Virus record (IMG/VR): IMGVR_UViG_3300024192_000006
Span: 1 to 26,606 of that record
Origin: a virus
Length of the DNA stretch: 26,606 bases
Direction: 5' to 3' (one strand)
In this document: in pieces, positions 2,835-25,217 of the stretch
Numbering within the stretch: position 1 is the first letter of the stretch
Layout: the number at the start of each line of letters is the position of its first letter
Notes under the pieces: generated by a model
The model's database searches: none
The model's input: only the letters and a program-made list of their open reading frames with translations
What the model was told of the DNA's origin: nothing
Program-made: the position numbers and the translations under genes

Positions 2835-3657
2835 TGTTGTACCTGTATCACAGACAGATGACGAAGTCCTTGAAGACTTTGTACGCGTGTTTAATTTATT
2901 TGGACCCTACCCGGGTCATGATCTTGTTGTAGTTAGCAGGCCGCGTGATCATATTCTGGCTCGTGAGACCTATAGACGTATCGAGCATAACTTTGAACGT
3001 GGTTGTAAGATTCATCACACGTTCGATATTGACGGTAGGCTCGGTTGGCCTGGAGGACCTAACCATTATTGGTTAGAGACAGCTAAGTATCTAAAGGGTG
3101 ACGAATATACCAACACGGATAAGCCATGGCTGTTCTTGGAGATGGATATGACGCCGCTCTGTAGAGGTTGGGCTGATAAGCTTGAAGCTGAATATCACGA
3201 GGAAGGTAAGCCATTTATGGGTAACTTATCATGGACTACTACCACTACAGGTGATCAAGAGATGGTCAAACTATGCCAGCATCTCGTTGGTGCGGCTATC
3301 TATCCACCAGATATCGGCATATATTCAAGGATTTGGACGTATGTTAATAATATAAATACAGCATGGGATGTCTTATGTCAGTGGGAGTTTCCGCCGCATG
3401 CGCATGATACCAAGCTGATACAACTATGTTTCAGGACGTGTAATTATAGCAAGTATCTTGATGACTCTGGTAATTATTTCGTTCAAGGTGAAGATAGAGA
3501 GGAATGGCCTGATCCGACATATACATTTAGTGAGCCTGTTAATGTACGTACAGCTGTACTGTTACATGGCTGCAATGATGGTTCATTAGCCCGGTTAGTG
3601 TATGAAGATGTAACTGGAGAGAAGATAGAAGATAATAGTGAAGAAGTTGATGAGTAA
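2827..3657 (+). CDS. glycosyltransferase-like protein (GT-A type)
   Basis: 276 residues. It begins with a beta strand and nucleotide-fold-like segment (MILVVPVSQTDDEVLEDF) and a second strand (HDLVVVSRPRD), and contains WLFLEMDMTPL (residues 101-111), where E106-x-D108 is in the place of the DxD metal/nucleotide-sugar motif of GT-A enzymes. Conserved aromatic and Cys residues follow. This suggests transfer of a sugar to phage DNA, a virion protein or a host glycan; the acceptor is not readable from sequence. Its own early-type promoter is buried in a start-codon hairpin. The next gene overlaps it by 8 nt (ATGAGTAA), so the two are coupled. Fold assignment is moderately secure, enzyme activity less so. 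Confidence 0.65.
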   Translation: MILVVPVSQTDDEVLEDFVRVFNLFGPYPGHDLVVVSRPRDHILARETYRRIEHNFERGCKIHHTFDIDGRLGWPGGPNHYWLETAKYLKGDEYTNTDKPWLFLEMDMTPLCRGWADKLEAEYHEEGKPFMGNLSWTTTTTGDQEMVKLCQHLVGAAIYPPDIGIYSRIWTYVNNINTAWDVLCQWEFPPHAHDTKLIQLCFRTCNYSKYLDDSGNYFVQGEDREEWPDPTYTFSEPVNVRTAVLLHGCNDGSLARLVYEDVTGEKIEDNSEEVDE

Positions 3658-4441
3658 GAAGTTACCAGTATTTTTTCACATACCCAAGAACGCCGGGACA
3701 TTTATGATCCGGCAGAGCTTAGCTGTTATGAAGCAGCATGCAGCAGGTAGAGCGTGTTGGTATATAGATGTACATCAAAATGACTCATCTATTTTTAGAT
3801 TTTTATATATAGGTGACCCACCAACGAGTGGTAGTTATACAAAACTAAACCCTATTTGCTATAAGGTAGATATAAATGATTTAGATATAAGTGATAAGAA
3901 TATATTCTTTGTAAAGGTATCTGATGAAGGCTTTAGAAACTATAAAGAGACCTTATATAGTATTCTACCGGAATATATAGAACCATATGAGTTTATCTTT
4001 TTGAGAGATGTTTATGAAAGAGTGCAATCACTATATACCTATATTCAATCACCAGATTCTGCTCATGAACCAACCCATAGAGCGTTTGGCGGTAAATCAT
4101 TTATAGAATATCTCAACTCATCACAACTCGAAGGGTCTTGGTTAATTAGAAATATACATAATTTACCAAATAATATTGCAGTAACTCAAGAACACTTTAA
4201 TAAAACATGTGAGCTTCTAGATAACATGCGTGTATATAATACGACCGAGACATCAACAGCATTAGCAGAAGTATATAAAGAGTGCTATAATATAGATACT
4301 AGTAACATTAAAGAGCAAATCTACAATAAGACTGCTAATAAGATAGATGTGCCTTTTGATAGTTTAGATGATCAAACACAGCATGCCTTTTTAAATCAAA
4401 CGAAATGGGATCAGCTAATATACAGGAGATATATAAAATGA
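3650..4441 (+). CDS. sulfotransferase-like protein
   Basis: 263 residues from the ATG at 3650, which overlaps the stop of the upstream gene; the in-frame GTG at 3638 adds only MKKL. Residues 7-19 (VFFHIPKNAGTFM) match the 5'-phosphosulfate loop of membrane-type/heparan-type sulfotransferases (HIPKxGGT pattern), and the later EFIFLRDVYERVQSLYTY resembles the 3'-phosphate-binding segment (LRDPxxRxxSxY). These motifs suggest use of PAPS to sulfate a glycan or protein. It sits between two glycosyltransferase-like genes, so sulfation of a sugar added by its neighbours is a natural idea. It is more AT-rich in style than the 2827 gene, which may point to separate acquisition. Activity is inferred only from motifs. 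Confidence 0.65.
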   Translation: MSKKLPVFFHIPKNAGTFMIRQSLAVMKQHAAGRACWYIDVHQNDSSIFRFLYIGDPPTSGSYTKLNPICYKVDINDLDISDKNIFFVKVSDEGFRNYKETLYSILPEYIEPYEFIFLRDVYERVQSLYTYIQSPDSAHEPTHRAFGGKSFIEYLNSSQLEGSWLIRNIHNLPNNIAVTQEHFNKTCELLDNMRVYNTTETSTALAEVYKECYNIDTSNIKEQIYNKTANKIDVPFDSLDDQTQHAFLNQTKWDQLIYRRYIK

Positions 4442-4500
4442 TAGTTAAAAAGGGAATCGAGGCGCAACAGTTAATCTCAACTTAATCAATTCTTAAAGAC

Positions 4501-5343
4501 GTGAAATCTAAATACGAAAAAAAAATAAAAACATCTATCATAACAATAACTTACGACAAAGATCTTGAGTTCTTAAAATACAATTTAAAATCAATTAAAA
4601 AATTCTGCGAAGGATATAATGAAAACATAATTGTTATTGATGATCATGAAGATGATTGTGCGAAGTCTCAAAGATATCTAGATTCAATTAGTCAAAAATA
4701 TTTCATTGACGAAAAAGCTAAAAATATTAAACACGGTTATGTGAGGCAACAATGGATTAAGTTGCTCTCTGATAAGTATGTTGCGGATAATACTGACTAC
4801 ATTCTTCATATTGACAGTGATAGTGTATTTAGTGCTGAACATAACCCTGATGTGTGGTTCAAAGATGGGAAGCCCGTCATGCTTCGAACATCATATGATA
4901 TGTTATTTAAAAAGATGAAAAGACCAATAGAAGGTGTTCAGCGGTGGCAACAACTAACGAGCGAAGCTTTAGGTTTTGATGTTGGGTATGAATATATGAG
5001 AGGTATGCCATTGGTATATCCAAAGAGATTGTTTGGTGAACTAAGAAGCTATATCGCTCGAACGCACGGTTGCAGTTTGTTTGATTATTTAAAAGATAAG
5101 CCAACTATATCTGAGTATAATATATTAGGTGCTTATGCTTATAAATATATGCGAGATGAGTTTTATTGGATTACCCAAGATGAAAACCATGACGAATATA
5201 TGAACTTTGTACATAACGCTAAACATAAATATATGCAGCATTATTCATCTCGAGAAAAGCAGCAGCCGATAAGATATATAGATCTTAACGACAAAGACAA
5301 CCCTTTATCAAAATTATTGGATATAGTTTGTGTACCAAAATAA
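4501..5343 (+). CDS. glycosyltransferase, GT-A type
   Basis: 280 residues from a GTG start, the only reasonable start because the next in-frame ATG is more than 100 codons downstream. The N-terminus is a typical GT-A strand-turn (KTSIITITYDKDLEFLKYNL), followed by a second strand with IIVIDDHEDD, and ILHIDSDSVF around residues 101-110 carries the DxD motif (D105-S-D107) that binds metal and nucleotide-sugar. The enzyme probably transfers a sugar inside the infected cell or onto virion or host surface polymers. It ends the glycosyl/sulfotransferase island; the remnant at 5354 suggests a further glycosyltransferase once followed. Highly Lys/Tyr-rich and AT-rich. Confidence 0.75.
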   Translation: MKSKYEKKIKTSIITITYDKDLEFLKYNLKSIKKFCEGYNENIIVIDDHEDDCAKSQRYLDSISQKYFIDEKAKNIKHGYVRQQWIKLLSDKYVADNTDYILHIDSDSVFSAEHNPDVWFKDGKPVMLRTSYDMLFKKMKRPIEGVQRWQQLTSEALGFDVGYEYMRGMPLVYPKRLFGELRSYIARTHGCSLFDYLKDKPTISEYNILGAYAYKYMRDEFYWITQDENHDEYMNFVHNAKHKYMQHYSSREKQQPIRYIDLNDKDNPLSKLLDIVCVPK

Positions 5344-5353
5344 TAAAAAAAAC

Positions 5354-5431
5354 ATGAAAGTACGAATATTTATAGTAACTTACAAAGATTTTAACTATTC
5401 CATAGATCCAGTTCAAACGATCTCCTTCTAA
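5354..5431 (+). pseudogene. truncated start of a third glycosyltransferase gene
   Basis: An ATG 11 nt after the preceding stop opens with MKVRIFIVTYKDFN, the characteristic first strand and turn of GT-A/GT2 glycosyltransferases and similar to TSIITITYDKD at the start of the upstream gene. The frame then runs antisense into the 3' end of the lysozyme gene (from 5391) and stops at 5431. This looks like the 5' stub of a gene whose remainder was lost by a deletion or by recombination that brought in the lysozyme gene. Confidence 0.5.
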
Positions 5432-6101
5432 CCAGACCTTTACGTATCTTACCACCTGCTATGCGATACATTGGAAGCACTTCCTTTACACTATCGTAAT
5501 TACCATCGTTCAATCTACCCGGCTTACCAACCAGCTGACTGAGAGCACCTCTACCACAGTTATATGTAAAGCTCGTTAACGCTGCTAACTGATTACTATT
5601 AAGTGGTACCTTGACAATAGACTGTACTACTTTTTCCGTCTCCCTTAATTCTCTCTCAAGAAGACTACTAGCTTCCTCCTCAGTTATATTACCTTTATTG
5701 ACAGCAGATCCTGTATGACCATATCCAATAGTCTCTTTACCACCTGAGCAGACGTATTTCTTTGCTCTAAAGCCTTCAAAGTGCTTAACACCATCTAGCA
5801 TCTCATTCCACGAATCATCTTCTTGTGAATCTAGATCATATTTAACTTTTGGTTTAACAAGTACAGGCTCTGTTGGCTCAGCCTCCTGCTCTAAATCCTT
5901 AAGGACCTCTTCTGCAGCTGCATCAAACTTCATATCTGTTATTTGATTATCTGCTATCTTTATAGCTTGTATCTTTTGCTCAATAGGTTCAGTCTTACTA
6001 TCAATCAGACTCTTAATATAATCAGCCTCATATGCACCAGCCCCAAGAGCTAATAGTGATAGTACTACCTCTTTAACACCTTCATCAAATTGTTCAGTCA
6101 T
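5391..6101 (-). CDS. GH24 (T4-type) lysozyme with N-terminal extension
   Basis: 236 residues. Residues about 1-90 are an extension with a short hydrophobic helix near the N-terminus (VVLSLLALGAGA), then charged and Pro/Glu-rich linker. Residues about 97-236 form a GH24 muramidase domain: E109 (HFEGF) is the catalytic acid, C118 occupies the place of T4 lysozyme D20, and T124 the place of T26 (KETIGYGHT); LAALTSFTYNCGRGAL and the RRR near the C-terminus are also typical. It should cleave peptidoglycan between MurNAc and GlcNAc. Because the spike genes at 11587-13774 lack a lysozyme domain, this may be the tail-associated lysozyme; it could equally be the lysis enzyme. A late promoter on the minus strand lies 7 nt before the ATG. 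Confidence 0.9.
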   Translation of the reverse strand: MTEQFDEGVKEVVLSLLALGAGAYEADYIKSLIDSKTEPIEQKIQAIKIADNQITDMKFDAAAEEVLKDLEQEAEPTEPVLVKPKVKYDLDSQEDDSWNEMLDGVKHFEGFRAKKYVCSGGKETIGYGHTGSAVNKGNITEEEASSLLERELRETEKVVQSIVKVPLNSNQLAALTSFTYNCGRGALSQLVGKPGRLNDGNYDSVKEVLPMYRIAGGKIRKGLVRRRSFELDLWNS

Positions 6102-6534: not shown

Positions 6535-6642
6535 ATGAGCAGAGTATCATTAAACAACATTAGTCCTTCTCGAAAGAGGAGCTCGGGTATAGAAGTAACG
6601 AACGGAACATCTAACTGCCTTAATACACGTAATGATATTTGA
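6535..6642 (+). CDS. possible 35-residue leader peptide overlapping nrdB
   Basis: An ATG-to-TGA frame of 35 codons (starts MSRVSLNNISPSRKRSSG) placed 11 nt after a TATAAT box and overlapping the nrdB start by 11 nt. It is basic and Ser/Asn-rich with no recognisable motif. The overlap would let its translation be coupled to nrdB. It may be only a leader that delivers ribosomes to nrdB, which has no Shine-Dalgarno sequence. Confidence 0.35.
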   Translation: MSRVSLNNISPSRKRSSGIEVTNGTSNCLNTRNDI

Positions 6643-7603
6643 AGAGCAGGTTTCAAGAAAACCTAACCAGTATCCATGGACCGAGCAGTTCATTGAAGCG
6701 ATGCATAATGGCTTTTGGACAGATAAAGAGTTTGGGTTTAAGTCAGATGTACAGCAGTTTAAAGTTGTCCTTACTGATCAAGAGAGAGAGATTATTATTC
6801 GTACTCTTAGTGCTATTGGTCAGATCGAGGTAGCTGTAAAAACTTTTTGGGCTAAACTGGGCGACAATCTCCCACATCCATCTCTACAGGACCTTGGATA
6901 TGTTATGGCTAACACAGAGGTCATTCATAACAATGCATATGAGAGATTACTTTCTGTGCTTGATATGGAGGATGTATTTGAAGAGAACCTTAAGTTAGAC
7001 TTTATTCAAGGCCGTGTTAAGTATCTTAAGAAGTATACACATAGATTCTATAAGGATAGTAAGAAGCAGTATCTTTATGCTCTTATTTTGTTTACTTTGT
7101 TCGTTGAGAATGTATCTTTGTTTTCTCAGTTTTACGTTATTAACTGGTTTGCGAGATTTAAAAACGTTCTTAAGGATACTGACCAGCAAGTTAAATACAC
7201 ACGTAATGAAGAGAACATTCACGCTATGGTAGGCGCACAGCTTATTAATACCATTCGTGAAGAGTATCCTGACTTGATTGACGACGAGTTGATTCAGCGT
7301 GTATCTCACGAAGCAGAAGAAGCCTTTAAGGCAGAAGCTAAGATCATTGACTGGATGGTTAATGGTGTTGATGAGGAAGGTTTATCTGCAGAGGTATTGA
7401 AAGAGTTTGTTAGAAGTAGAATTAATGATTCACTTGAAATGATTGGATTTAATCCTGTTTTTGACATTGATAAAGATAAAATAGCCAGTACAATATGGTT
7501 TGAAGAGGAGTTACACGGTAACTCTATGACCGACTTCTTCCATGGTAGACCAGTTGAGTATGCCAAGAAGAACCAGTCATTCTCTGAAGACGATTTATTT
7601 TAA
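6632..7603 (+). CDS. nrdB: class I ribonucleotide reductase, small (beta) subunit
   Basis: 323 residues, usual for NrdB. It provides the metal/tyrosyl radical cofactor used by NrdA to reduce ribonucleotides to deoxyribonucleotides. Ferritin-like metal ligands are in order: E66 (QIEVAV), E96 and H99 (TEVIHNNAY), a later Glu in LFVENVSLF, and E-x-x-H in NEENIHAM. Y103 is in the place of the radical tyrosine Y122 of E. coli. The C-terminus ends in acidic SEDDLF, the kind of tail that docks into the large subunit. It precedes nrdA by 8 nt, the reverse of the order common in bacteria. The product feeds phage DNA synthesis with dNTPs, some made by recycling host nucleotides. Confidence 0.97.
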   Translation: MIFEEQVSRKPNQYPWTEQFIEAMHNGFWTDKEFGFKSDVQQFKVVLTDQEREIIIRTLSAIGQIEVAVKTFWAKLGDNLPHPSLQDLGYVMANTEVIHNNAYERLLSVLDMEDVFEENLKLDFIQGRVKYLKKYTHRFYKDSKKQYLYALILFTLFVENVSLFSQFYVINWFARFKNVLKDTDQQVKYTRNEENIHAMVGAQLINTIREEYPDLIDDELIQRVSHEAEEAFKAEAKIIDWMVNGVDEEGLSAEVLKEFVRSRINDSLEMIGFNPVFDIDKDKIASTIWFEEELHGNSMTDFFHGRPVEYAKKNQSFSEDDLF

Positions 7604-7611
7604 CTGATTTT

Positions 7612-9261
7612 ATGAAAAAAAGAATATACTGGCTTAATAAGGACTCGCGTAAATTTCTAGAGCGTGGGTATCTACTGGAAGGTGAAACACCAGAGCAGCG
7701 CATTAGAGATATTGCTGAGCATGCTGAGAAGATTCTCGGTATTGAAGGTTACGCAGATAAGTTTGAAAACTATATGCATAGAGGCTTCTACTCGCTAAGT
7801 TCTCCTGTATGGAGTAACTTCGGTAGAGAGCGTGGACTTCCTATTAGTTGTTTTGGTTCCTATGTACCTGATACTATGTCAGGTATTCTAGAGAAGACTG
7901 CTGAGGTAGGTATTATGACTGCTCAAGGAGGTGGAACATCTGGTTATTTTGGTGATATCAGAGGCCGTGGTGCTCCTATTTCTACTGGTGGTAAGTCAAC
8001 AGGAGCTGTTCACTTTATGGAACTTTACGATAAACTAATGAATGTTGTTTCCCAAGGGAACGTTCGTAGAGGTTCCTTTGCTGCTTACTTACCTGTTGAC
8101 CATCCAGATATTGAAGAGTTCCTTAAGATTAGATCTGAGGGTAATGATATTCAAGATATGTCTATTGGTGTTACTGTCAGTGATGAGTGGATGAAGTCCA
8201 TGATTGATGGTGATAAAGAAAAGAGATCTATTTGGGGACTTATTATTAAGAAGAGATTTGAGACTGGTTACCCGTATGTATTCTTTGAGGATAATGTTAA
8301 CAATCAAGCACCTAATGTTTATAAAGATAAAAATGAAAAGATCTACGCTAGCAACCTTTGCAGTGAGATCATGCTACCTTCTAACCCAGCGGAGAGCTTT
8401 GTTTGCTGTCTCTCAAGCTTAAACCTACTTAAGTGGGATAAGCTCGTTGATACCGATGCTGTTGAAACGCTTGTATACTTTCTTGACGCTGTTATTTCAG
8501 AGTTCGTTGATAAGACAGAAGGTATGCAGTTTATGAATGCACCGAGACGCTTTGCTCTTAATCATAGAGCATTGGGGGTTGGAGTGTTAGGATGGCATTC
8601 GTATCTGCAAAAGAACATGATAGCGTTTGAGTCCATGGAGGCAAAGATGGTTAATGGTACTATCTGGTCGACGATTCGTGAGAGAGCAGACAAAGCATCT
8701 GTGGAGTTAGCTGATATGTTTGGTGAAGCGCCTATACTTGAAGGATATGGTAGACGTAATACAACCACTCTTGCTGTAGCACCAACTACTTCAAGCTCAT
8801 TTATTCTCGGTCAGGTATCACCATCTATTGAGCCTCTTAACTCTAACTACTTTGTTAAAGATCTCGCTAAGGGTAAGTTTACTTTTAAGAATCCTGAGCT
8901 AAGAAAGCTTCTCACTAGAAAGAAACAAAATACAGATGATGTATGGAGATCTATTCTAGTACACGGAGGGTCAGTTCAGCATTTAGATTTTCTAGATCAA
9001 GAAGAGAAAGACGTGTTTAAGACCTTTGGTGAGATTTCTCAGAAGGAGATTATTATTCAAGCTGGTATTAGACAAAAGCATATTGATCAAGGCCAGTCTC
9101 TTAACATTATGATACCACCTACAACTAAACCAAAAGAAGTAAATGAGCTTATGATCTTCGCTTGGGAACAAGGTATTAAGTCATTATACTATCAGCGTAG
9201 TGCTAACCCAGCTCAAGAGCTAGCTAGATCTATTCTTACATGTAGTACTTGTGAAGGATAA
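7612..9261 (+). CDS. nrdA: class I ribonucleotide reductase, large (alpha) subunit, compact form
   Basis: 549 residues, much shorter than E. coli NrdA (about 760). Catalytic parts are all present: C80 (PISCFGS) and C265 (FVCCLSSLNL) as the active-site redox pair, N248-x-C250-x-E252 (ASNLCSEIML) with the thiyl-radical cysteine, Y526-Y527 (KSLYYQRS) for radical transfer, and C544-x-x-C547 (CSTCEG) as the C-terminal shuttle pair. The protein starts right at the ten-stranded barrel and lacks the N-terminal ATP-cone, so dATP feedback inhibition is probably absent, useful during a burst of DNA replication. The C-terminal CxxC needs a thioredoxin or glutaredoxin partner, which is not visible in this window. 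No Shine-Dalgarno; coupled to nrdB. Confidence 0.97.
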   Translation: MKKRIYWLNKDSRKFLERGYLLEGETPEQRIRDIAEHAEKILGIEGYADKFENYMHRGFYSLSSPVWSNFGRERGLPISCFGSYVPDTMSGILEKTAEVGIMTAQGGGTSGYFGDIRGRGAPISTGGKSTGAVHFMELYDKLMNVVSQGNVRRGSFAAYLPVDHPDIEEFLKIRSEGNDIQDMSIGVTVSDEWMKSMIDGDKEKRSIWGLIIKKRFETGYPYVFFEDNVNNQAPNVYKDKNEKIYASNLCSEIMLPSNPAESFVCCLSSLNLLKWDKLVDTDAVETLVYFLDAVISEFVDKTEGMQFMNAPRRFALNHRALGVGVLGWHSYLQKNMIAFESMEAKMVNGTIWSTIRERADKASVELADMFGEAPILEGYGRRNTTTLAVAPTTSSSFILGQVSPSIEPLNSNYFVKDLAKGKFTFKNPELRKLLTRKKQNTDDVWRSILVHGGSVQHLDFLDQEEKDVFKTFGEISQKEIIIQAGIRQKHIDQGQSLNIMIPPTTKPKEVNELMIFAWEQGIKSLYYQRSANPAQELARSILTCSTCEG

Positions 9262-10522: not shown

Positions 10523-10972
10523 ATGAAAGAAAAGATTATCGGTTACGATGTAATAGATTTTTTAACGAAAAGTATTGCTCTTCGTTTTAAACTTAATGGA
10601 AAAGACTTTACACACGTTATTGGCATTGCACGTGGTGGAATGATTCCGGCGACTATGATGAGTTATTTATTTAATGCAAAGCTATTATCGTATGATGTAA
10701 GTTCGTATGAAGGTACAGAACAAGGAGATATTGAAATCAATCAGGATATTGATTTAGATAGTATTGATAAAGATAGTAAGGTGTTGGTTATTGATGATAT
10801 ATGCGATTCAAGTAAAACCATGCAACACATTAAGCAAAAGATAGGTGATACAAGATATAAATCTGTAAGATACGTTACGTTGTTTGCTAGAGAGAAAACC
10901 AAACATGTTGTAGATCACTACGGTGTTACAGTTAAGGAAGGTACGTGGTTAGTATTTCCATGGGAGAAATAA
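10523..10972 (+). CDS. purine-type phosphoribosyltransferase
   Basis: 149 residues. VIGIARGGMIPA (residues 32-43) is the substrate-proximal loop and VLVIDDICDSSKTM (87-100) the PRPP-binding signature of type I phosphoribosyltransferases; the ending LVFPWEK is also familiar from xanthine/guanine-type members. It would attach a ribose-5-phosphate from PRPP to a free purine base (guanine, xanthine or hypoxanthine) and release pyrophosphate. An early-type promoter places it with the nucleotide and modification genes. If the TGT-like enzyme at 14452 swaps guanine out of DNA, this enzyme could recover the released guanine as GMP; that link is my inference. The exact base cannot be read from the sequence. 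Confidence 0.9.
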   Translation: MKEKIIGYDVIDFLTKSIALRFKLNGKDFTHVIGIARGGMIPATMMSYLFNAKLLSYDVSSYEGTEQGDIEINQDIDLDSIDKDSKVLVIDDICDSSKTMQHIKQKIGDTRYKSVRYVTLFAREKTKHVVDHYGVTVKEGTWLVFPWEK

Positions 10973-14417: not shown

Positions 14418-14445
14418 TTGAAATCTGTTTTTCAAGAGCTATAAT
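14418..14445 (+). promoter_or_regulatory. early-type promoter (TTGAAA-16-TATAAT) for the modification operon
   Basis: TTGAAA at 14418-14423, 16-nt spacer, TATAAT at 14440-14445, exactly 6 nt before the ATG at 14452. CTTGAAA and TTTCAAG in the spacer region form a small inverted repeat (14417-14423 with 14430-14436), a possible operator. Confidence 0.7.
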
Positions 14446-14451
14446 ATAAGT

Positions 14452-15315
14452 ATGCTTGTATCACATGAAACACCTATTAGTATGCTAGAAGAGTCTAGAT
14501 ATTACAATGATTATGATTATGCTCTAGTGCACTTGTTCGAGACTCACCCAGAGTATTACTCCTTCTTTAAACAATCACTTCTTGCTGGTAGAGAGGTATT
14601 GCTAGATAACTCTATCTTTGAACTTGGTTATGCCTTTAATCCTGAGAAGTTTGTAAAATATGTTGAAGAGCTTAAACCTACTTATTATGTAGTACCTGAT
14701 GTTCTAGAAGACTCGCAAAAGACTATGTCATCTTTTCATAAGTTTAAGATGCAATATCCTGATCTACCTGGTCTGACTATCGGAGTTGTACAAGGAAAGA
14801 CTTATCAGCAGTTAGTTAAATGTTATAAGTATATGTCAGCTCATGCAGATTATATCGCTATCTCATTTGACTACTCCTGGTATAAAACTATCGGTCATTA
14901 TGAGCCTATTGAAAGACCGCATGTAGTTATGGATGTAGAAGACAAATCTCTATATGACAAGCTACATAAGCAAGATGATCATAGAGCCGTGCTAGAGTTA
15001 CTAGCAGATGGTAGACGTAAGTTTATTAATATGTTGATTGATGATGGTATCTGGAATCATAATAAGCCACATCACTTGCTCGGTAATTCACTCCCACAAG
15101 AGATGAAGCATTATACTGATATTAAGTCTATTAGATCTGTTGATACATCCAACCCTATCGTCGCAGGTATCAAAGGTATTCGATATATTAAGGATTATGG
15201 AATGACACAGAAGCCATCTACTATGCTAGCCGATCTTATCGATCACGAGGTTACAGAAGATGAGAAGTTTGATATTAACTATAACGTACAACAATATAAG
15301 CAGCTATGCAAGTAG
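14452..15315 (+). CDS. dpdA: TGT/DpdA-like base-exchange enzyme (7-deazaguanine insertion in DNA)
   Basis: 287 residues, shorter than bacterial tRNA-guanine transglycosylase (about 370). The TGT landmarks appear in order: LLDNSIFELG (D52, place of the DSGGFQ aspartate), YVVPDVLEDS (D83), LTIGVVQGKTYQQL (GVVQG 111-115, the GIVQGG loop), DYIAISFDY (place of GGLSVGE), HLLGNSLPQE (208-217, place of the LMGVGTPED motif), and IRSVDTSNP with D231 as the probable nucleophile. I cannot find the Cys/His zinc cluster of tRNA enzymes with their usual spacing. Phage DpdA enzymes exchange guanine in DNA for preQ0 or preQ1. A QueF gene 1.2 kb downstream and a coupled formyltransferase support DNA modification rather than tRNA queuosine. 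First gene of a three-gene overlapping operon. Confidence 0.8.
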   Translation: MLVSHETPISMLEESRYYNDYDYALVHLFETHPEYYSFFKQSLLAGREVLLDNSIFELGYAFNPEKFVKYVEELKPTYYVVPDVLEDSQKTMSSFHKFKMQYPDLPGLTIGVVQGKTYQQLVKCYKYMSAHADYIAISFDYSWYKTIGHYEPIERPHVVMDVEDKSLYDKLHKQDDHRAVLELLADGRRKFINMLIDDGIWNHNKPHHLLGNSLPQEMKHYTDIKSIRSVDTSNPIVAGIKGIRYIKDYGMTQKPSTMLADLIDHEVTEDEKFDINYNVQQYKQLCK

Positions 15316-15944
15316 GTAGTAAGTGGGTAGCGTTCTTTTCGCAGACTGGTTCTGAAATTGTAAGTCTTATTAAGAAGGGGTATAGGCCTGATCTTATTAT
15401 TACTGATAATAAAGAATCGTACGATGAACGTAAGACGTTCTTTAAGTATTTTAATATTGAGTTTTGGTATAGACCTTTACCAAAAAGTATCAATTATAAA
15501 GTACAGTATTATGATGAGATTTTGAATAGTAAAGATATAGTCACATTACATGGCTGGTTAAATATTGTACCTGCAGATACATGTGAAAGGTATACTATAT
15601 ATAACGGTCATCCAGGTCATATAGTTAACTACCCTGAACTTAAAGGTAAAGATCCGCAAGAGCGTGTTTTTAAGAACCTTAAAAAGTATGATACTGTTGG
15701 TAGTGTTATCCATAGAGTTACAGATGAAGTAGATGGTGGTGAGGTTGTAGTTGTAGCTGAACAATCAACAAATACAAATATTAAAATAAACTCACTTGAT
15801 GGTATGTTTGGTGTTTGTAGTGCTTTATCTCTACATACTTGGGAACAGTTTTTTAGGAACTCTAATATAATATTGGAAACGGATCTTAACTACGATGGAA
15901 CATTTAAGAATGATCGTGAGAATAACATACCTATATACTGCTAA
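15306..15944 (+). CDS. PurN-like formyltransferase, likely part of the deazaguanine pathway
   Basis: 212 residues. The fold and catalytic triad match 10-formyl-tetrahydrofolate-dependent formyltransferases: an N-terminal strand-loop (WVAFFSQTGSEIVSLI), N100-x-H102 in YNGHPGHIVNYP, and D143 in GSVIHRVTDEVDGGEVV. The first gene overlaps it by 10 nt and the third by 1 nt, so the three products are probably made together. In purine synthesis such enzymes formylate GAR, but nothing else of that pathway is here. Formylation of the primary amine of preQ1, free or already in DNA, is a better contextual fit. Homology to PurN is clear; the substrate is inferred. A sugar-nucleotide amine is another possible acceptor. 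Confidence 0.85.
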   Translation: MQVGSKWVAFFSQTGSEIVSLIKKGYRPDLIITDNKESYDERKTFFKYFNIEFWYRPLPKSINYKVQYYDEILNSKDIVTLHGWLNIVPADTCERYTIYNGHPGHIVNYPELKGKDPQERVFKNLKKYDTVGSVIHRVTDEVDGGEVVVVAEQSTNTNIKINSLDGMFGVCSALSLHTWEQFFRNSNIILETDLNYDGTFKNDRENNIPIYC

Positions 15945-16528
15945 TGAGTAAGCTACTAATATCATTCTCCGGTGCTCAATGTACTGGAAAGACGACTCTA
16001 CTTAAAAGGTTACGTGATTGTAATTCTAGTGTTAACTTTGTTCCTGAAGTTACTAGACTTATTAAACGTGACTATGGTGTTGATATTAATGAAGCTGGTA
16101 ATGAGATGACTCAAGCTCTTATCATTACCGAGCATTTTAAGAATATTAATAATCATAACAAACAAGAAAGAAGCTCTATCTTAGATAGATGTATTCTAGA
16201 TGGGCTTATCTATACTTCCTGGTTAGAAGATAATAAAGCTCTAAATACCTGGACTGGTAATTATGCATATCATCTATTTGATAATTATATTGAAAGTTAT
16301 GATGTTATTTTTTATACTGACTCAGCTGATGTTAAGATCGAAGACGATGGTGAGAGAAGTATAGATATTGGTTTTAGGAATGATATCATTAGTGACTTCG
16401 AGCATTGGCTTGAGTGTAATCCTAGATTAAAAGAAAGGGTTGTAGTACTGAGTGGTACAGTAGAAGAAAGATTAGAAATAATTAAAAGGACTTTGTCTGA
16501 AAAAGGACTTGACATCAACATCAAATAA
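15944..16528 (+). CDS. P-loop kinase/ATPase (AAA_28/NadR-like)
   Basis: 194 residues. Walker A is G10-AQCTG-K16-T17 (FSGAQCTGKTTLL); ERSSILDRCILDG (around 75-87) carries the D-R pair typical of nucleoside and nucleotide kinases of the NadR/deoxynucleoside-kinase type, and KxxxDGERS near residue 127 resembles a lid. It starts on the last base of the formyltransferase stop (TAATG), so it belongs to the same early operon. It probably phosphorylates a small molecule; candidates are a nucleotide or deazapurine intermediate, or a general dNMP. The promoter of queF overlaps its last codons. Substrate unknown. Confidence 0.8.
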   Translation: MSKLLISFSGAQCTGKTTLLKRLRDCNSSVNFVPEVTRLIKRDYGVDINEAGNEMTQALIITEHFKNINNHNKQERSSILDRCILDGLIYTSWLEDNKALNTWTGNYAYHLFDNYIESYDVIFYTDSADVKIEDDGERSIDIGFRNDIISDFEHWLECNPRLKERVVVLSGTVEERLEIIKRTLSEKGLDINIK

Positions 16529-16536
16529 TATATAAT
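16509..16536 (+). promoter_or_regulatory. early-type promoter, consensus TTGACA-16-TATAAT, for queF
   Basis: Both hexamers match the sigma70 consensus perfectly. The -35 is inside the last codons of the kinase gene and the -10 ends 6 nt before the ATG at 16543, predicting a leaderless queF mRNA. It is the strongest promoter-like sequence I found in the window. Confidence 0.8.
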
Positions 16537-16542
16537 AAGAAC

Positions 16543-17484
16543 ATGGCATTAAAAGAACTAGATAATTCAAATATTAATAAGCACCTCGGTAAGTCATCTG
16601 AGTATGCGAGTCTATATGATCCGAGCTTGCTTGTACGTGAGCCTCGTCAATCAAACCGAACGCATATTAATGTTGTAGATGATAGCCTTCCTTTTGTAGG
16701 AGGTGATACATGGAATGGTTATGAGGTAACTGGTCTTACAAATAGTGGTAGACCTATTGTAGGTGTGGCTAAGTTTGTATATCCTTGCGATAGTAAGTAT
16801 ATTGTAGAATCAAAGTCACTTAAACTTTACTTCAACTCGTTTTGTATGACTCATCTAGGTGAGACTGAGCAAGATGTACTGCGTAGTATCGAAGAAAAAG
16901 CTGCTAAAGATCTTAGTGAGTATCTTGAGACTACAGCAGAGGTGAGAGTATTCTCTAACTTCGAAGCGTTAAATGATCCAACGTATGCAATGCGTGAGTG
17001 GCATCGAGATGCACTAGTTGGTGATAGAATTCAAGGTTATATTACTCTAGAAGAATCATGTAAAGACGATTCAATGGTGTTTGATACCTACTCTGAAACT
17101 CCTGAGTTGCTGGAGTTGATTGATAGTGATAAAGAAGCTCAACTCTTTCATAGTTCTCTACTAAGATCTAGATGTCGTGTAACTTCGCAACCTGACTCAG
17201 GTGATGTGTATATTTACTTTAAGGGTGATAAAACAGTAACTGAAGAGTCTCTACTTAAGTATATTGTATCATTTAGAGATGAGTGTCACTTCCATGAAGA
17301 GATTTGCGAGACTATCTATACTCGTTTATTTGAGTTACTAGAACCAGAAGAGCTTGTAGTTCGTTGTCTATATGCACGCCGTGGTGGGTGGGATATTAAC
17401 CCTGAACGAGCGTCAGATCCTAAACTATTACATCATACTCTTGGCGATACTCGAGTAGTTCATGTTAAGACACCAAAGCAATAA
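16543..17484 (+). CDS. queF: 7-cyano-7-deazaguanine (preQ0) reductase, QueF
   Basis: 313 residues, the long two-domain form like E. coli QueF. It reduces the nitrile of preQ0 to the aminomethyl of preQ1 with two NADPH. Landmarks: LGKSSEYASLYDPSLLVREPRQSNR (start of the domain), the family signature ESKSLKLYFNSF (89-100), the catalytic C211 that forms the thioimide with D218 close by (SRCRVTSQPDSG), FHEE (250-253) for substrate binding, and ARRGGWDINP (278-287) near the C-terminus. No preQ0 synthesis genes are in the window, so preQ0 would come from the host or from elsewhere in the genome. It has its own consensus promoter and terminator, directly behind the TGT-like/formyltransferase/kinase operon. 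Confidence 0.97.
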   Translation: MALKELDNSNINKHLGKSSEYASLYDPSLLVREPRQSNRTHINVVDDSLPFVGGDTWNGYEVTGLTNSGRPIVGVAKFVYPCDSKYIVESKSLKLYFNSFCMTHLGETEQDVLRSIEEKAAKDLSEYLETTAEVRVFSNFEALNDPTYAMREWHRDALVGDRIQGYITLEESCKDDSMVFDTYSETPELLELIDSDKEAQLFHSSLLRSRCRVTSQPDSGDVYIYFKGDKTVTEESLLKYIVSFRDECHFHEEICETIYTRLFELLEPEELVVRCLYARRGGWDINPERASDPKLLHHTLGDTRVVHVKTPKQ

Positions 17485-18332: not shown

Positions 18333-21300
18333 ATGATTAAACTGTTTAGCGAAGAGGTAAATCCTACCTTTACTAGCTCAAGACATAACATCCTAACAGT
18401 TGAAAGCTATAATGAAGTTTTCTTCGATGTGTTTGAATTTGAGATAAATGGTACAACGTATATTGCGGAGAAGTTGTCTGTATATAACGGCAAACCTGTA
18501 GTTGCGATACCTGTAGTAGAGAAGGATGTAAAGCGTACGATCCCGTTTGTACTTACAGAAGGTAGCTTTGAGGTGCTATATAACGAGGCAAATAATGAAG
18601 TCGTTAATAGTGCTGAAGATCAGAGGATTATCGATAGCATCATGATCGAGGATGATGTAGTAGATATTGCACGCGACTATAAAGAAGATTTACTTGAGGA
18701 GGTTGAGGTAGCAAAGCGGCATGCAGCAGAATACGCGGAGCGTGTTAGGCTTCAAAAAATAGCAGAAGCTGATATTACCATAGAAGAGAAAAAACAAAGT
18801 ATCAGAGAGTTCTTCGATACGTCAAAAGTTGATCTACTTGAAGAGTTTAATACTGCTCTTATTAATAATAAACAAGATTTTGAGAACTATACAGAGCAAA
18901 AGCATAGTGAGATAGAGAAGTATCTTACTAGTAGAATTGAAAATAACTTTAGTGAGTTCTTTGACATTAACGAGGAGCGTATTAAGGAGCTCGATGGTAG
19001 AATTGAGCTCAGCCTTGTAGATAAAATTAAGGCAGCTGAAGGGCGTGTTACAAAAGATGTACATGAAACGGTATCACAACAGAGCGATGTATTAACTGAG
19101 CAGATCAAAAAGGGTGTAGATAAAGCTCTTGGTAGGGTAGGTAATGTTAAAACAGCGGTTAACGATTTACAGGACCAGTTACTAGAAAAAATTGAAACTG
19201 TTGATGGTAGTATCAGAGAATACTACGATACTAGGATCAGTAATATCAGAGATGAGGTTGATATACTTAACGAGAGTCAGAAGGATTACTTTATTAACTT
19301 GGTTGAAGAGAGTAAGACACGTTTACTTGAGCAAGTTAATCAAAATAAAGAAGAGACCGTACAAGCGTTAATTGAAGAAAATTATGACCCGGTAAAAGGC
19401 AATAAGGACTTCAATAAGAGTATTAAAAAGCTAAAAGTAGAACTTGAAAAAGTTATATCTGATAAGTTTAGTGGTGAGTTAATGTCACTTAAACGTGCTA
19501 TCGAATTATCCGGAGGTGGTGGTGGTACTGTAGCCAAACAGTTTGCGAACGGTGGTGTTATGCGTGGCGACTTAACGGTTATAGGTACTGTATCTGCAGA
19601 TTGTGGTGATAGTAATGATTGGTGCAGTACATATACAACAGTTAATGCTAATAGTGCGCTATGGAATACTGGTGGTTATGATTTTTCATTATTAGAATCA
19701 ACTAGCGGTAACTGGAATTCAACATACACAACGGTAGGTACTTATAGTGCTAACTGGGAATCAACCTATACAACGGTAGGTTCAAATAGTGCAGACTGGG
19801 TGACCTATTCATCAGATAGTATTTCAGCTGCTAACTGGGTACTAGATGAGAATAATTTAGGGAGTAATTCTAATACAAAAGTACCTACACAGCAGAGTGT
19901 AAAAGCGTATGTTGATAATATTGTAACTGGTGTTAATAATCTAAAGGGTGGTTATGATGCGAGTACAGATAGCCCGCCGTTAACAGCAGGGGTCGGTGTA
20001 TTACAAGGAGATACATATTATATTGAAACGGGTGGGTTGTTTTACACGGAACAAGTAGATCCAGGTGATTTAATTATCGCGATAGAAGATGGGTCTAATG
20101 CAGAAGGTAAGTGGGTTGCTGTTAACAGAAACCTTCAAGATGAATTAATCGATAAATGGAATAGTAATTATACTACCACAAGTGCTAATAGTGCTAATTG
20201 GCAGTCAACATATACTACAGTCGATGCTGCATCCGGTAATTGGAATAGTACTTATAATACAGTTACTTCGTTAAGTGATACTTGGGATGATCAATTCGAT
20301 AGTACAGCAATAGAAGCCGCAAGTGCTAACTGGGATAGTACTTATAATACAGTTACTTCTCTGAGCGATACTTGGGATGATCAATTCGATAGTACAGCAA
20401 TAGAAGCTTCATCCGGTAATTGGGATAGTACTTATAATACAGTTACTTCGTTAAGTGATACTTGGGATGATCAATTCGATAGCACGGAAATAGAAGCTTC
20501 ATCCGGTAATTGGGATAGTACTTATAATACAGTTACTTCGTTAAGTGATACTTGGGATGATCAATTCGATAGCACGGAAATAGAAGCCGCAAGTGCTAAC
20601 TGGGATAGTACTTATAATACAGTTACTTCGTTAAGTGATACTTGGGATGATCAATTCGATAGCACGGAAATAGAAGCTGCATCCGGTAATTGGAATAGTA
20701 CATACACCACAGTAACTAATGAGAGTGCTGATTGGGAGAGTACATATACAACAGTTGATACTGAGAGTGCTAACTGGGATAGTACTTATAGTACTGTAGG
20801 TACATATAGTGCTGATTGGGAGAGTGGAGGCACTGGTGATTTTTGTGGTAAAGTTGTTACAATGGATCAACTCTCATCCTGCGGTACAGGTACAATTGGT
20901 GTTTCTGCTAATCTTGATGTTAACGATAACACTATAGACAATGTACACTCTATACAGTTTCACCTAGACGATACTATAACACCTGTTGAAGGTAATTTGA
21001 ACTGGAATGAAACAGAGGGTACTTTGGATTTAGGCCTTGCTGGTGATGGTATAGGTGTTATGCTTGGTATGGAGCAGGTCCTACGTGTTAAGGCAAATGA
21101 AAATATTACAGCAGGTCAGGCAGTTTATATTACTAGTGCTCAGGGTCAGCACCCGCTAATATCTTTAGCATCTAACGATACAGAGGAAGAATCTCATGCA
21201 GTGGCTGGTGTAGCTGCAGAAGATATTGATTCGAATCAGTTTGGTTATATAACCACGCAAGGTATACTTAGTGGTATCGATACAAGTAATATTCCAGCTG

Positions 21301-22364
21301 GTGAAATTGTGTATCTTGGTACAAATGGTGCGCTTGTCGACATTATTCCTACAACACCTGACCATGAAGTGCGTTTAGGTTACTGTATACGGTCGGCAGT
21401 TGCTCCAGAAGGTAAGATGTATGTCAGTCTAGATTTAGGTTACGATGTGGAAGATCTACATGATGTATCAATTAACTCCTTACAAGATAAAGATATATTA
21501 TCATATAATAGTTCATTAAGCGTTTATGAAAATGTAACTAGTACAAATTGGGAATCAACCTATACTACTGTAAGTTCGAATAGCGCTAACTGGGTTAAGT
21601 ATGATATTGAAGATATTGCTACACCTGCAACATGGGTACTAGATATTGATAATTTAACTGATCCAGAAGTGTTAGGTGATGCAGATGGCTCTGCTACAAA
21701 AGTACCAACACAGCAGAGTGTAAAGGCATATGTCGATAGTATTGTAACCGGTGTTAATAATTTGGAGGGTGGTTATAATGCGAGTACAGATAGCCCACCG
21801 TTAACAGCAGGTACTGGTGTATCGCAAGGTGATACATATTATATTGAAACAGGTGGTACGTTTTACGACATACAAGTTGATAAAGGTGATTTAATTATCG
21901 CGATAGAAGACGGTTCTAATATAAAAGATGAATGGGTTATTGTTAACAGAAACCTTCAAGATGAATTAATCGATAAATGGAATAGTAATTATACTACCAC
22001 AAGTGCTAATAGCGCTGATTGGCAGTCCACATATACGACAGTAGGCACCTATAGCGCTAATTGGGGAGCAGGAGCGTCTGTTGTAACACAAAGTACGCCG
22101 CCGTTAGCGGTTGATTCAGAAGTAGGTGATTTGTGGTTTGAAGATGATAGTGGTAAGCTATTTGTATATTATTGGGATGGTGATGCATATCACTGGGTGG
22201 ATACATCTGGCGGTATATCAGATCTAGATAACGTAGTTACAAGCCCGGATTCAGATGTTTCTGCGGAAACAACACAGGTTAATGAAATAATTCAAATAAC
22301 ACAGGCGGGGTATAATGCACTTACCCCACCTGCTGCTAATACGTTATATATTATTATAGATTAA
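18333..22364 (+). CDS. large repeat-built tail fibre protein
   Basis: 1343 residues. Residues 1-110 form a small beta-rich attachment domain (NGTTYIAEKLSVYNGKPVVAIPV); about 110-390 is a long charged coiled coil; a Gly hinge (SGGGGGT, near 392) follows; then come many 14-residue units of the form NWxSTYTTVxxxSA, five perfect-looking 30-residue repeats (residues 636-785), a beta-rich domain near 830-1060 (ITAGQAVYITSAQ), and a C-terminal tip ending NTLYIIID. A module of about 130 residues (KVPTQQSVKAYVD ... NRNLQDELIDKWNSNYTTT) occurs twice. The NWxSTY units probably form a trimeric coil. Role: host recognition as a trimeric fibre on the baseplate. Late promoter; the adhesin genes follow immediately. 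Confidence 0.85.
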   Translation: MIKLFSEEVNPTFTSSRHNILTVESYNEVFFDVFEFEINGTTYIAEKLSVYNGKPVVAIPVVEKDVKRTIPFVLTEGSFEVLYNEANNEVVNSAEDQRIIDSIMIEDDVVDIARDYKEDLLEEVEVAKRHAAEYAERVRLQKIAEADITIEEKKQSIREFFDTSKVDLLEEFNTALINNKQDFENYTEQKHSEIEKYLTSRIENNFSEFFDINEERIKELDGRIELSLVDKIKAAEGRVTKDVHETVSQQSDVLTEQIKKGVDKALGRVGNVKTAVNDLQDQLLEKIETVDGSIREYYDTRISNIRDEVDILNESQKDYFINLVEESKTRLLEQVNQNKEETVQALIEENYDPVKGNKDFNKSIKKLKVELEKVISDKFSGELMSLKRAIELSGGGGGTVAKQFANGGVMRGDLTVIGTVSADCGDSNDWCSTYTTVNANSALWNTGGYDFSLLESTSGNWNSTYTTVGTYSANWESTYTTVGSNSADWVTYSSDSISAANWVLDENNLGSNSNTKVPTQQSVKAYVDNIVTGVNNLKGGYDASTDSPPLTAGVGVLQGDTYYIETGGLFYTEQVDPGDLIIAIEDGSNAEGKWVAVNRNLQDELIDKWNSNYTTTSANSANWQSTYTTVDAASGNWNSTYNTVTSLSDTWDDQFDSTAIEAASANWDSTYNTVTSLSDTWDDQFDSTAIEASSGNWDSTYNTVTSLSDTWDDQFDSTEIEASSGNWDSTYNTVTSLSDTWDDQFDSTEIEAASANWDSTYNTVTSLSDTWDDQFDSTEIEAASGNWNSTYTTVTNESADWESTYTTVDTESANWDSTYSTVGTYSADWESGGTGDFCGKVVTMDQLSSCGTGTIGVSANLDVNDNTIDNVHSIQFHLDDTITPVEGNLNWNETEGTLDLGLAGDGIGVMLGMEQVLRVKANENITAGQAVYITSAQGQHPLISLASNDTEEESHAVAGVAAEDIDSNQFGYITTQGILSGIDTSNIPAGEIVYLGTNGALVDIIPTTPDHEVRLGYCIRSAVAPEGKMYVSLDLGYDVEDLHDVSINSLQDKDILSYNSSLSVYENVTSTNWESTYTTVSSNSANWVKYDIEDIATPATWVLDIDNLTDPEVLGDADGSATKVPTQQSVKAYVDSIVTGVNNLEGGYNASTDSPPLTAGTGVSQGDTYYIETGGTFYDIQVDKGDLIIAIEDGSNIKDEWVIVNRNLQDELIDKWNSNYTTTSANSADWQSTYTTVGTYSANWGAGASVVTQSTPPLAVDSEVGDLWFEDDSGKLFVYYWDGDAYHWVDTSGGISDLDNVVTSPDSDVSAETTQVNEIIQITQAGYNALTPPAANTLYIIID
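19836..20219 (+). repeat. fibre module, copy A (copy B at 21633-22039)
   Basis: Encodes WVLDENNLG...KVPTQQSVKAYVD...NRNLQDELIDKWNSNYTTTSANSANW. Copy B encodes almost the same sequence with an insertion near its start (TDPEVLGDADG). The 3' parts are nearly identical in DNA, indicating a recent duplication or conversion. Confidence 0.8.
20238..20687 (+). repeat. five tandem 90-bp repeats in the fibre gene
   Basis: Five in-frame units of 30 residues (NW(N/D)STYNTVTSLSDTWDD, then QFDST(A/E)IEA(A/S)S(A/G)), nearly identical in DNA. Single variants (AIE/EIE, ASA/SSG) are shuffled between copies as expected from recombination. Two more copies lie in the fibre gene at 23916. Confidence 0.95.
20695..20820 (+). 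repeat. 126-bp exact direct repeat shared with 24265-24390
   Basis: Positions 20695-20820 and 24265-24390 are identical base for base as read by eye, in frame in two different fibre genes 3570 bp apart. The identity stops abruptly at both ends. Confidence 0.9.
21633..22039 (+). repeat. fibre module, copy B (copy A at 19836-20219)
   Basis: Second copy of the KVPTQQSVKAYVD module, closer to the C-terminus of the same protein. See copy A. Confidence 0.8.
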
Positions 22365-22619: not shown

Positions 22620-23615
22620 ATGGCGACAGTAATAAGTATAAATCCAGAGGACGGCCCTTCAGCTGTTACAAAAATCGATTGCGGGACATCCTCTCCGAAA
22701 CTTAGTGGTACGATTGATGTATCTGCTTTTGAAAATTTACAAGAAATAAGATGCAGAAGTAATCATATAACAGAAATAACCGGTTATACTGATAATACTA
22801 ATATACAGACAATATTTGTGGATGATAACAAACTCAGCGGGTCTATTCCTGATATCACCGGTATGTCGAGTTTACAGCTTATAAATTATGGCAAAAATCA
22901 GCTCACTGGTAGTATTCCAAGTTTAAGCAACAATACGGTGCTGAGAGATTTCTTTTGTTACAGTAATCAACTCACTGGTAATATTCCAAGTTTAAGCAAC
23001 AATACAGTTCTTGAAAAATTTAACTGTGTTGATAATAACTTAACTGGTAATATTCCAAGTTTAAGCAACAATACGGAGCTTTCAGTATTTAAATGTCGTA
23101 GAAATCAACTCACTGGTAATATTCCAAGTTTAAGCAACAATACCGTGCTTGAAATATTTGACTGTGCTGAAAATAACTTAACTGGTAATATTCCAAGTTT
23201 AAGTAGTAATACGGTGCTTGAACAATTTGACTGTGCTGAAAATAACTTAACTGGTAATATTCCAAGTTTAAGTAGTAATACGGTGCTGAGAGATTTCTTT
23301 TGTTACGGTAATCAACTCACTGGTAATATTCCAAGTTTAAGTAGTAATACAGTTCTTGAACAATTTAGCTGTCGTAGAAATCAATTATCTGGATACGTGG
23401 CTGGTTCGGTGCCAACAAGTTTATTATTTTTTAAAGCAGAATATAATCAATTAACTGCAACAGCAGTAAATGCCATTTTAGCAGATCTTGTTGCTGCCGG
23501 CACGACAAATGGTACTTTAAATTTAGGTGGCACGAATGCCGCCCCTACTGGTCAGGGCTCTATTGATGCACAAACTCTTAGAGATCGCAATTGGTCAGTA
23601 ACAGTAGCCCTATAA
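22620..23615 (+). CDS. leucine-rich-repeat tail adhesin (C-terminal part of split gene)
   Basis: 331 residues from the ATG at 22620; the open frame extends upstream to 22605. After the last strand of a PKD-like domain come about nine LRR units, of which seven are 23-residue near-identical repeats NxLTGxIPSLSxNTxLxxFxCxx (22896-23378). The LTGxIP pattern is the plant/bacterial-extracellular type of LRR. A unique cap follows (SVPTSLLFFKAEYNQLTATAVNAILADLV) and a C-terminal beta segment. LRR arrays bind proteins or glycans, so this is a likely receptor-binding tip carried by the preceding fibre. The conserved Cys in each repeat is probably reduced in the ladder interior. Confidence 0.85.
   Translation: MATVISINPEDGPSAVTKIDCGTSSPKLSGTIDVSAFENLQEIRCRSNHITEITGYTDNTNIQTIFVDDNKLSGSIPDITGMSSLQLINYGKNQLTGSIPSLSNNTVLRDFFCYSNQLTGNIPSLSNNTVLEKFNCVDNNLTGNIPSLSNNTELSVFKCRRNQLTGNIPSLSNNTVLEIFDCAENNLTGNIPSLSSNTVLEQFDCAENNLTGNIPSLSSNTVLRDFFCYGNQLTGNIPSLSSNTVLEQFSCRRNQLSGYVAGSVPTSLLFFKAEYNQLTATAVNAILADLVAAGTTNGTLNLGGTNAAPTGQGSIDAQTLRDRNWSVTVAL
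22896..23378 (+). repeat. seven tandem 69-bp LRR-coding repeats
   Basis: Seven units of 69 bp, sharing TTCCAAGTTTAAG and flanking bases almost without change, with changes concentrated at the last seven codons of each unit (DFFCYS, KFNCVD, VFKCRR, IFDCAE, QFDCAE, DFFCYG, QFSCRR). Copy number can vary by recombination without breaking the frame. Confidence 0.95.
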
Positions 23616-23915: not shown

Positions 23916-25217
23916 ATGGCTGCTATTAATTTTCCAACTCCTGAAGAAGGCAAAAAACACCGATCTTGGATTTATCAGCAAGGTGCTTGGGTAAAACAAC
24001 CTTTTAATTTTACCTTTATTATAGCATCTTCTGGTAACTGGGAGAGTACATATACTACAGTTGATGCTGAGAGTGCTAACTGGGATAGTACATATAATAC
24101 AGTTACTTCTCTGAGCAATACTTGGGATGATCAATTTGATAGCACAGCAATTGAAGCCGCGAGTGCTAACTGGGATAGTACATATAATACAGTCACCTCG
24201 TTAAGTAATACCTGGGATGATCAATTTGATAGTACGGAAATAGAAGCTGCGAGTGCTAACTGGGATAGTACATACACCACAGTAACTAATGAGAGTGCTG
24301 ATTGGGAGAGTACATATACAACAGTTGATACTGAGAGTGCTAACTGGGATAGTACTTATAGTACTGTAGGTACATATAGTGCTGATTGGGGTCTTATGGG
24401 AGGTACTGAACTAAATCATGACAATAACAACAACGGCACGCAATTAGCACTTGAAGTTGTTGAGAGAAATACTGGCGCGGCGAATCATGATAATATCGTA
24501 CAGGGTAATAGAAGAGGCGCCTCAGCTGTAGATCTGCAGATATATCGCACTTCAGCTGATGAAGTCGCTGCCGGCCCAAGAAGTTCATTACTAGGTGGTG
24601 ATAAAAATAAGATAGGTACAGCAGGTAATGGCTCTACTATTATAGGCGGTTTAAACAATGAAGCGACTAGCAATTATAGTGCTATATTAGCAGGACGAGA
24701 CAATATAATTACCACGCAGTCATGTATAGCCGGTGGTCAAAGTAGTATAATCAATCATGATCGATCATTCATGTTTAATGCGGGTGATTTATCGAATACC
24801 TTTAGTACCGTTAGCGCAGATACATTCAACGTTAGAGTTGGTAATGGTATGCGTCTAGTGTTTGATGAGGTTGATCATACAGGTGATGTATTAACATGTC
24901 TAGATAGTAATGGTATAGGTAAGTGGGCATCATTATATAGTTCTGAGACAATATCTACAACTACTCATACACAGGCAGTTGACACTACACATAACTTATA
25001 TAATGATGATACAGCTGGTGCACAAATTGATGTAACACTACTAGCTCCAACGAGTCATAAAGGAGAGACTACACATATGAAGATAGGCTCAACTGCAGAT
25101 GTGGTATTAACACCAGCAAGTGGTACAATTAATGGAGCTGGTTCTTATACACTAACAACACAATATCAAGCTGTTAAGGTGTTTAGTGACGGTACAAACT
25201 ACTTCGTAATGGCTTAA
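23916..25217 (+). CDS. second tail fibre protein with YadA-head-like repeats
   Basis: 433 residues. It starts with an attachment motif (INFPTPEEGKKHRSWIYQQGAWV), continues with NWxSTYTTV units and two 30-residue repeats shared with the 18333 fibre (residues about 40-158), then a beta-roll region about residues 195-285 (SSLLGGDKNKIGTAGNGSTIIGGLNNEATSNYSAILAGRDN..., cut here for length) like the head repeats of trimeric autotransporters, and ends in a beta-rich tip (TLLAPTSHKGETTHMKIGS ... YFVMA). A trimeric fibre or short adhesin is likely. The 126-bp exact identity with the 18333 gene indicates exchange between the two. Confidence 0.85.
   Translation: MAAINFPTPEEGKKHRSWIYQQGAWVKQPFNFTFIIASSGNWESTYTTVDAESANWDSTYNTVTSLSNTWDDQFDSTAIEAASANWDSTYNTVTSLSNTWDDQFDSTEIEAASANWDSTYTTVTNESADWESTYTTVDTESANWDSTYSTVGTYSADWGLMGGTELNHDNNNNGTQLALEVVERNTGAANHDNIVQGNRRGASAVDLQIYRTSADEVAAGPRSSLLGGDKNKIGTAGNGSTIIGGLNNEATSNYSAILAGRDNIITTQSCIAGGQSSIINHDRSFMFNAGDLSNTFSTVSADTFNVRVGNGMRLVFDEVDHTGDVLTCLDSNGIGKWASLYSSETISTTTHTQAVDTTHNLYNDDTAGAQIDVTLLAPTSHKGETTHMKIGSTADVVLTPASGTINGAGSYTLTTQYQAVKVFSDGTNYFVMA
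24265..24390 (+). repeat. 126-bp exact direct repeat, second copy
   Basis: Identical to 20695-20820. It encodes the NW-STYTTV units just before the YadA-like part of this fibre. Confidence 0.9.

Follow-up and report, generated by a model that had tools for sequence, protein, structure and literature searches.

A predicted guanine-modification cassette of a marine phage and the kinase that accompanies its short transglycosylase

What is the function of a block of four tightly packed genes that lies among tail and other late-type phage genes, and why should a kinase be part of it? The question is raised by positions 14452-17484 of IMG/VR record IMGVR_UViG_3300024192_000006, a linear fragment of 26,606 bp from a marine phage (this whole stretch is called the window here). 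An earlier note, made from the sequence alone, had read these genes as an early cassette for 7-deazaguanine DNA modification encoding a transglycosylase, a formyltransferase, a kinase and QueF. Four adjacent open reading frames (ORFs) are present, all on the + strand, and we consider it likely that a large marine phage with T4-like traits expresses them early, as a 7-deazaguanine DNA-modification module of the DpdA3 type. The features of the cassette are as follows:

14418-14445, + strand: sigma70-type dpdA promoter, TTGAAA-16-TATAAT (11/12), -10 ending 6 nt before the ATG (leaderless-type)
14452-15315, + strand: dpdA ORF, 287 aa
15306-15944, + strand: formyltransferase ORF, 212 aa
15944-16528, + strand: kinase ORF, 194 aa
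16509-16536, + strand: consensus queF promoter, TTGACA-16-TATAAT (12/12), inside the 3' end of the kinase gene, -10 ending 6 nt before the ATG
16543-17484, + strand: queF ORF, 313 aa
17504-17533, + strand: strong intrinsic terminator (12-bp stem, T-run) at the end of the cassette unit

The first three genes are coupled as had been described: dpdA and the formyltransferase gene overlap by 10 nt and the formyltransferase and kinase genes by 1 nt (TAATG), while a gap of 14 nt separates the kinase gene from queF.

The first protein was identified by its fold, because this revealed what Pfam and PDB sequence searches alone could not: they gave DUF6610 alone (0.0011), and the Pfam TGT family gave no match. 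An AlphaFold2 model (mean pLDDT 92.8, pTM 0.88) fits the DNA preQ0 insertase DpdA (7ui4; Z 17.2, 227 residues) and arcTGT (1iq8; Z 17.6), and the structural match to TGT/DpdA spans the full length of the protein (residues 1-287). Residues D52, D83, Q114-G115, H208 and D231 are invariant across 64 relatives, and LDN, H-x-LG and RS-D are retained in six deep relatives. When phage genomes were searched by tblastn, the protein showed 46.8% identity to the "DNA guanine transglycosylase" of Flavobacterium phage vB_FspM_immuto and 43-44% identity (E to 2e-52) to hypothetical proteins of Campylobacter phages. The latter include CP220 and CPt10, phages known for total replacement of deoxyguanosine (dG), in which this homologue is unannotated. 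The best reading of the model is that the protein is a short DNA-guanine transglycosylase of the DpdA type with a TGT/DpdA barrel, which we take to be DpdA3-type in the sense of Cui et al. (2023); these authors are said to tie short DpdA3 transglycosylases to complete guanine replacement. The barrel in the model also means that the protein survives the refuting condition set in the earlier note, a predicted structure that is not TGT-like.

The kinase belongs to AAA_28 (PF13521, 60.6 bits). Its model is similar to the ribosylnicotinamide kinase NadR (Z 18.7) and to dCK (Z of about 18), with Z between 17 and 19 for NadR and dCK/dGK, and conserved positions include the P-loop, E35, R38, Q57, D81-R82 and D135-G-x-R-S. 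It falls short of the Pfam dNK cut-off (PF01712, 24.5 against 27 bits), which a remote homologue in locus L160 exceeds (33.6 bits). The product is predicted to be a nucleoside or nucleotide kinase of the dNK/NadR/TMK type. A second, longer AAA_28 paralogue (~250-300 aa) is found in seven genomes (G001, G002, G004, G005, G007, G008 and G009); it sits close behind QueE in G005 (C1:96401-97147) and in the preQ0 gene region in most of the others.

The formyltransferase profile matches PurN structures (E 9e-12), and the triad N100-x-H102 with D143 is invariant in 13/13 aligned rows. No homologues outside immuto phages were found among 50,697 phage records. The protein is predicted to be a PurN-fold, DpdN-like enzyme that N-formylates preQ1, and Cui et al. 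(2023) reportedly describe DpdN as a dPreQ1 formyltransferase with fdPreQ1 as its predicted product. The last protein exceeds the Pfam cut-offs of both QueF_N (PF14819, 102.1 bits) and QueF (PF14489, 72 bits) and carries the NADPH motif ESKSLKLY as well as C211, D218 and H251-E252; from these domains it can be called a bimodular QueF-domain, 7-cyano-7-deazaguanine reductase-like protein, although not a certified equivalog. The motifs that had been listed earlier are all at the positions claimed for them (LDNS with D52, GVVQG at 111-115 and SVDTSNP with D231 in the transglycosylase; ESKSLKL at 89 and C211 in QueF).

Both promoters that had been claimed for the cassette were located, and they are the only sites in the window scoring at least 11/12. 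As shuffled sequence gives 1.1 such sites on average, we rejected the idea that the pair is a statistical oddity; the case for the promoters lies in their position before an ATG and in their conservation, not in their number. The dpdA promoter scores at least 10/12 in 88% of 84 loci (local background mean 8.1/12) and the queF promoter in 66%. Among 74 genes in 25 loci with a promoter of at least 10/12, the -10 ends 5-6 nt before the ATG in 41, mostly dpdA, kinase, queF and phosphoribosyltransferase (PRTase) genes. Close-set sigma70 promoters (-10 ending 5-8 nt before the ATG) recur in the window and in loci L007-L094, an arrangement that suggests leaderless early transcripts. A box resembling the late promoter of T4, [T/A]AAATA, stands 7-30 nt before the start codon of 16 of the 34 window genes (~1.9 expected) and before none of the four cassette genes. 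The early-type character assigned to the unit is upheld.

How constant is the kinase among relatives? Where at least 3.5 kb of downstream sequence is available, as in 66 IMG/VR loci, the order is invariably dpdA-(ft)-kinase-queF, with kinase and QueF in 66/66 and the formyltransferase in 29/66, although these loci are mutually related and the counts are not independent trials. With near-copies removed, the kinase is present in 64/64 loci, and in the 50 with enough sequence the counts are 50/50 for the kinase, 50/50 for QueF and 26/50 for the formyltransferase, whose distribution requires no more than three changes on the DpdA tree. The formyltransferase and the kinase had been presented earlier as equal additions to the pathway, which does not hold, as the kinase is obligatory and the formyltransferase optional. 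The best reading is that the kinase is a core, obligatory partner of the short DpdA in close relatives. Other genes may stand between dpdA and its partners: L010 (8791-14397) and L023 (8979-14573) have a minus-strand block between dpdA and the formyltransferase gene with curli secretion-like (CsgG/E/F-like), FecR and CHASE2 genes, and L009 (8428-9180) and L027 (8842-9648) have GIY-YIG homing endonuclease-like ORFs right behind dpdA.

As the loci are related, stronger evidence comes from separate kinase families and from swapped gene positions. In deeper lineages, the gene immediately upstream of dpdA belongs to another P-loop kinase family: a phrog_761 "thymidylate kinase" in Bacillus phage BSP7 and Weizmannia phage Youna2, and a phrog_19196 kinase-like gene in Cellulophaga phage phiST and Chryseobacterium phage MA9V-3. 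These four phages resemble the window in having a distant DpdA with an adjoining kinase-like gene, and differ from it in kinase family, in upstream placement and in having no adjacent formyltransferase. CP220 and CPt10 encode a homologous DpdA (43%) with a homologous kinase immediately behind it; unlike in the window, neither QueF nor a formyltransferase adjoins, and an HD + P-loop protein lies upstream. According to PMC8306585 (citing Crippen 2019), dADG replaces 100% of dG in the DNA of these phages. In L147, a 304-aa ORF (5082-5993) directly before a distant dpdA combines a QueD-like N-terminal half, read from the sequence by eye, with an AAA_18 kinase C-terminal half, which alone was scored. 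The kinase rule is not universal, as several of the deepest relatives have no adjacent kinase: none adjoins the dpdA relative in L153, L155, L166, L168-L170 or L172-L174, deep relatives whose membership in DpdA3 is uncertain.

Phages with DpdA1 provide a contrast. PF01702 did not detect DpdA in 9g, CAjan, Dp-1, nt-1 or 7-11, and because of this failure on known DpdA proteins the controls were chosen by annotation and DpdA1 alignment. None of the 79 DpdA1-type control loci has an adjacent kinase-like ORF, and one has such an ORF within 3 kb (the CAjan control stretch excludes its dpdA gene); in addition, the kinase profile gave no match in the complete genomes of 9g, CAjan and Dp-1. The systems of 9g and Dp-1 share with the window a TGT-fold DNA transglycosylase and queuosine genes, lack an adjoining kinase, and replace guanine partially (PMC6884629).

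The gene combination itself, which had been thought new, is not. Phage immuto (MW353176, immuto35A_54-68) carries genes for DpdA, the formyltransferase, a "thymidylate kinase" and QueF in the order seen in the window (47%, 39%, 32% and 44% protein identity, respectively), and all four are present in those 29 IMG/VR loci that have the formyltransferase. Immuto differs in having QueD, QueE, FolE, PRTase and MazG-like genes just upstream and a small ORF between the DpdA and formyltransferase genes. The cassette is thus one more example of a DNA-modification gene set already known. Of the pathway proposed in the earlier note, the barrel, QueF, the PurN-fold formyltransferase with its intact triad, the P-loop kinase and the early-type unit stand, and the claims of novelty fall. 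The kinase rule is not described in the literature that was read.

We infer what the enzymes do, which base results and what the kinase acts on as follows. PreQ0 would be made by FolE, QueD, QueE and QueC encoded elsewhere in the phage genome, QueF would convert it to preQ1, and the short DpdA would exchange guanine for preQ1. The PurN-like enzyme would then add a formyl group to the aminomethyl group, using formyl-tetrahydrofolate. The short DpdA would need a purine nucleoside or nucleotide kinase, either for activation of a modified deoxynucleotide or for recycling of displaced guanine to dGTP. The best reading of the output is DNA containing preQ1 or formyl-preQ1, with the nucleotide kinase as a core partner, and the likely benefit would be resistance of phage DNA to restriction.

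Several points weigh against this reading. The formyltransferase does not reach the cut-off of the NCBIfam PurN equivalog TIGR00639 (28.8 against 150.1 bits), QueF is likewise below that of TIGR03138 (232.4 against 293.45 bits over 287 residues), and formylation could target the base, the nucleotide or the DNA, the sole support for preQ1 or dPreQ1 as substrate being the position of the gene between those for DpdA and QueF. Finally, the window contains no genes for preQ0 synthesis. This absence had been noted earlier, correctly for the window, but it is no novelty: the genes are missing because the 26.6-kb fragment ends, and long IMG/VR relatives encode them away from the cassette (QueC, QueD and QueE in 8/9, FolE in 5/9).

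Two explanations of the kinase are about equally likely, and neither is held with more than tentative confidence. According to the first, the substrate of DpdA would be a deoxyguanosine nucleotide (or the nucleoside) in free form, the kinase would phosphorylate the 7-deazaguanine deoxynucleotide, and polymerase would incorporate the product, resulting in complete replacement. The short DpdA and its kinase might, somewhat speculatively, thereby form a second, pre-replicative route that writes 7-deazaguanine into DNA by way of the nucleotide pool. This is favoured by the constant pairing of the kinase with this type of DpdA among close relatives, by the other kinase families adjoining DpdA at swapped positions in several deeper lineages, and by the lack of a kinase adjoining the 79 DpdA1-type genes. 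The dNK/NadR/TMK fold, with one family member above the Pfam dNK cut-off, and the fusion of QueD and kinase that abuts dpdA in L147 point the same way. Incorporation from the pool also accords with the 100% replacement given for CP220 in PMC8306585, and a modified dGTP has been proposed for Campylobacter phages (PMC6884629). On the other hand, the TGT fold suggests a polymer substrate, and searches with PF03819, PF01503 and PF01966 turned up, in most long relatives, none of the dGTP-removing enzymes that are usual in such routes; a constant dGTP-removing pyrophosphatase partner was rejected for this reason. Furthermore, in infected cells Crippen and co-workers (2019) reportedly detected no phosphates of dADG, and Cui et al. 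(2023) are said to place insertion after replication, which agrees with the second explanation.

According to that explanation, DpdA would act on DNA after replication and free one guanine per exchange; a Gpt-like PRTase would convert the guanine to GMP, the kinase would form (d)GDP, and ribonucleotide reductase would refill the dGTP pool. Genes of this kind are encoded in the window:

6632-9261, + strand: ribonucleotide reductase, NrdB + NrdA (NrdE-prime), a context of deoxynucleotide supply
10523-10972, + strand: xanthine/guanine phosphoribosyltransferase (XGPRT)-like protein, -10 ending 8 nt before the ATG

The XGPRT-like protein is a possible guanine-recycling partner of the cassette, and one is also encoded inside the immuto queuosine cluster. 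A PRTase was found in 10 of the 12 genomes, with a close-set promoter of the dpdA/queF kind where seen. However, none was found in CP220 or G003, both of which retain the kinase, DpdA1 phages replace ~30% of G with no adjacent kinase, and hosts possess a guanylate kinase of their own.

It is unlikely that the kinase instead works on the base within DNA, or that it is a general dNMP kinase whose place near dpdA is owed to chance. P-loop kinases do act in the hypermodification of DNA (on thymine) in other phages, and members of this family occur beside dUTPase in Campylobacter phage CC_R7 and, with no DpdA nearby, in Streptomyces phages. Nevertheless, the base of CP220 is plain dADG (PMC8306585) and the kinase is retained there all the same, and chance accounts neither for a fixed order in all 66 loci nor for the arrival of other kinase families at this site. 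A role in tRNA queuosine synthesis, in which QueF and TGT-fold proteins also work, is very improbable, given that the closest relatives of the transglycosylase are DNA-modifying phage proteins, that the Pfam TGT family does not match it, and that formyl-preQ1 is not known to occur in tRNA.

Elsewhere in the window, two large structural proteins (18333-22364 and 23916-25217) have a common Trp/Ser-rich repeat, SANWDSTYNTVTSLSDTWDDQFDS, and a protein with leucine-rich-like repeats (22620-23615) lies between them. At 2827-5343 there are genes without PHROG matches that may be glycosyltransferase- and sulfotransferase-like.

The tie between the short DpdA and a kinase outlasts changes in the final base, in the formyltransferase and even in the kinase family, and it offers a handle on how every guanine comes to be replaced in phages of this type when other DpdA phages show partial replacement. 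It singles out a so far unstudied kinase as central to a cassette type that is widespread in uncultured phages, at least 558 IMG/VR stretches encoding a relative of the transglycosylase.

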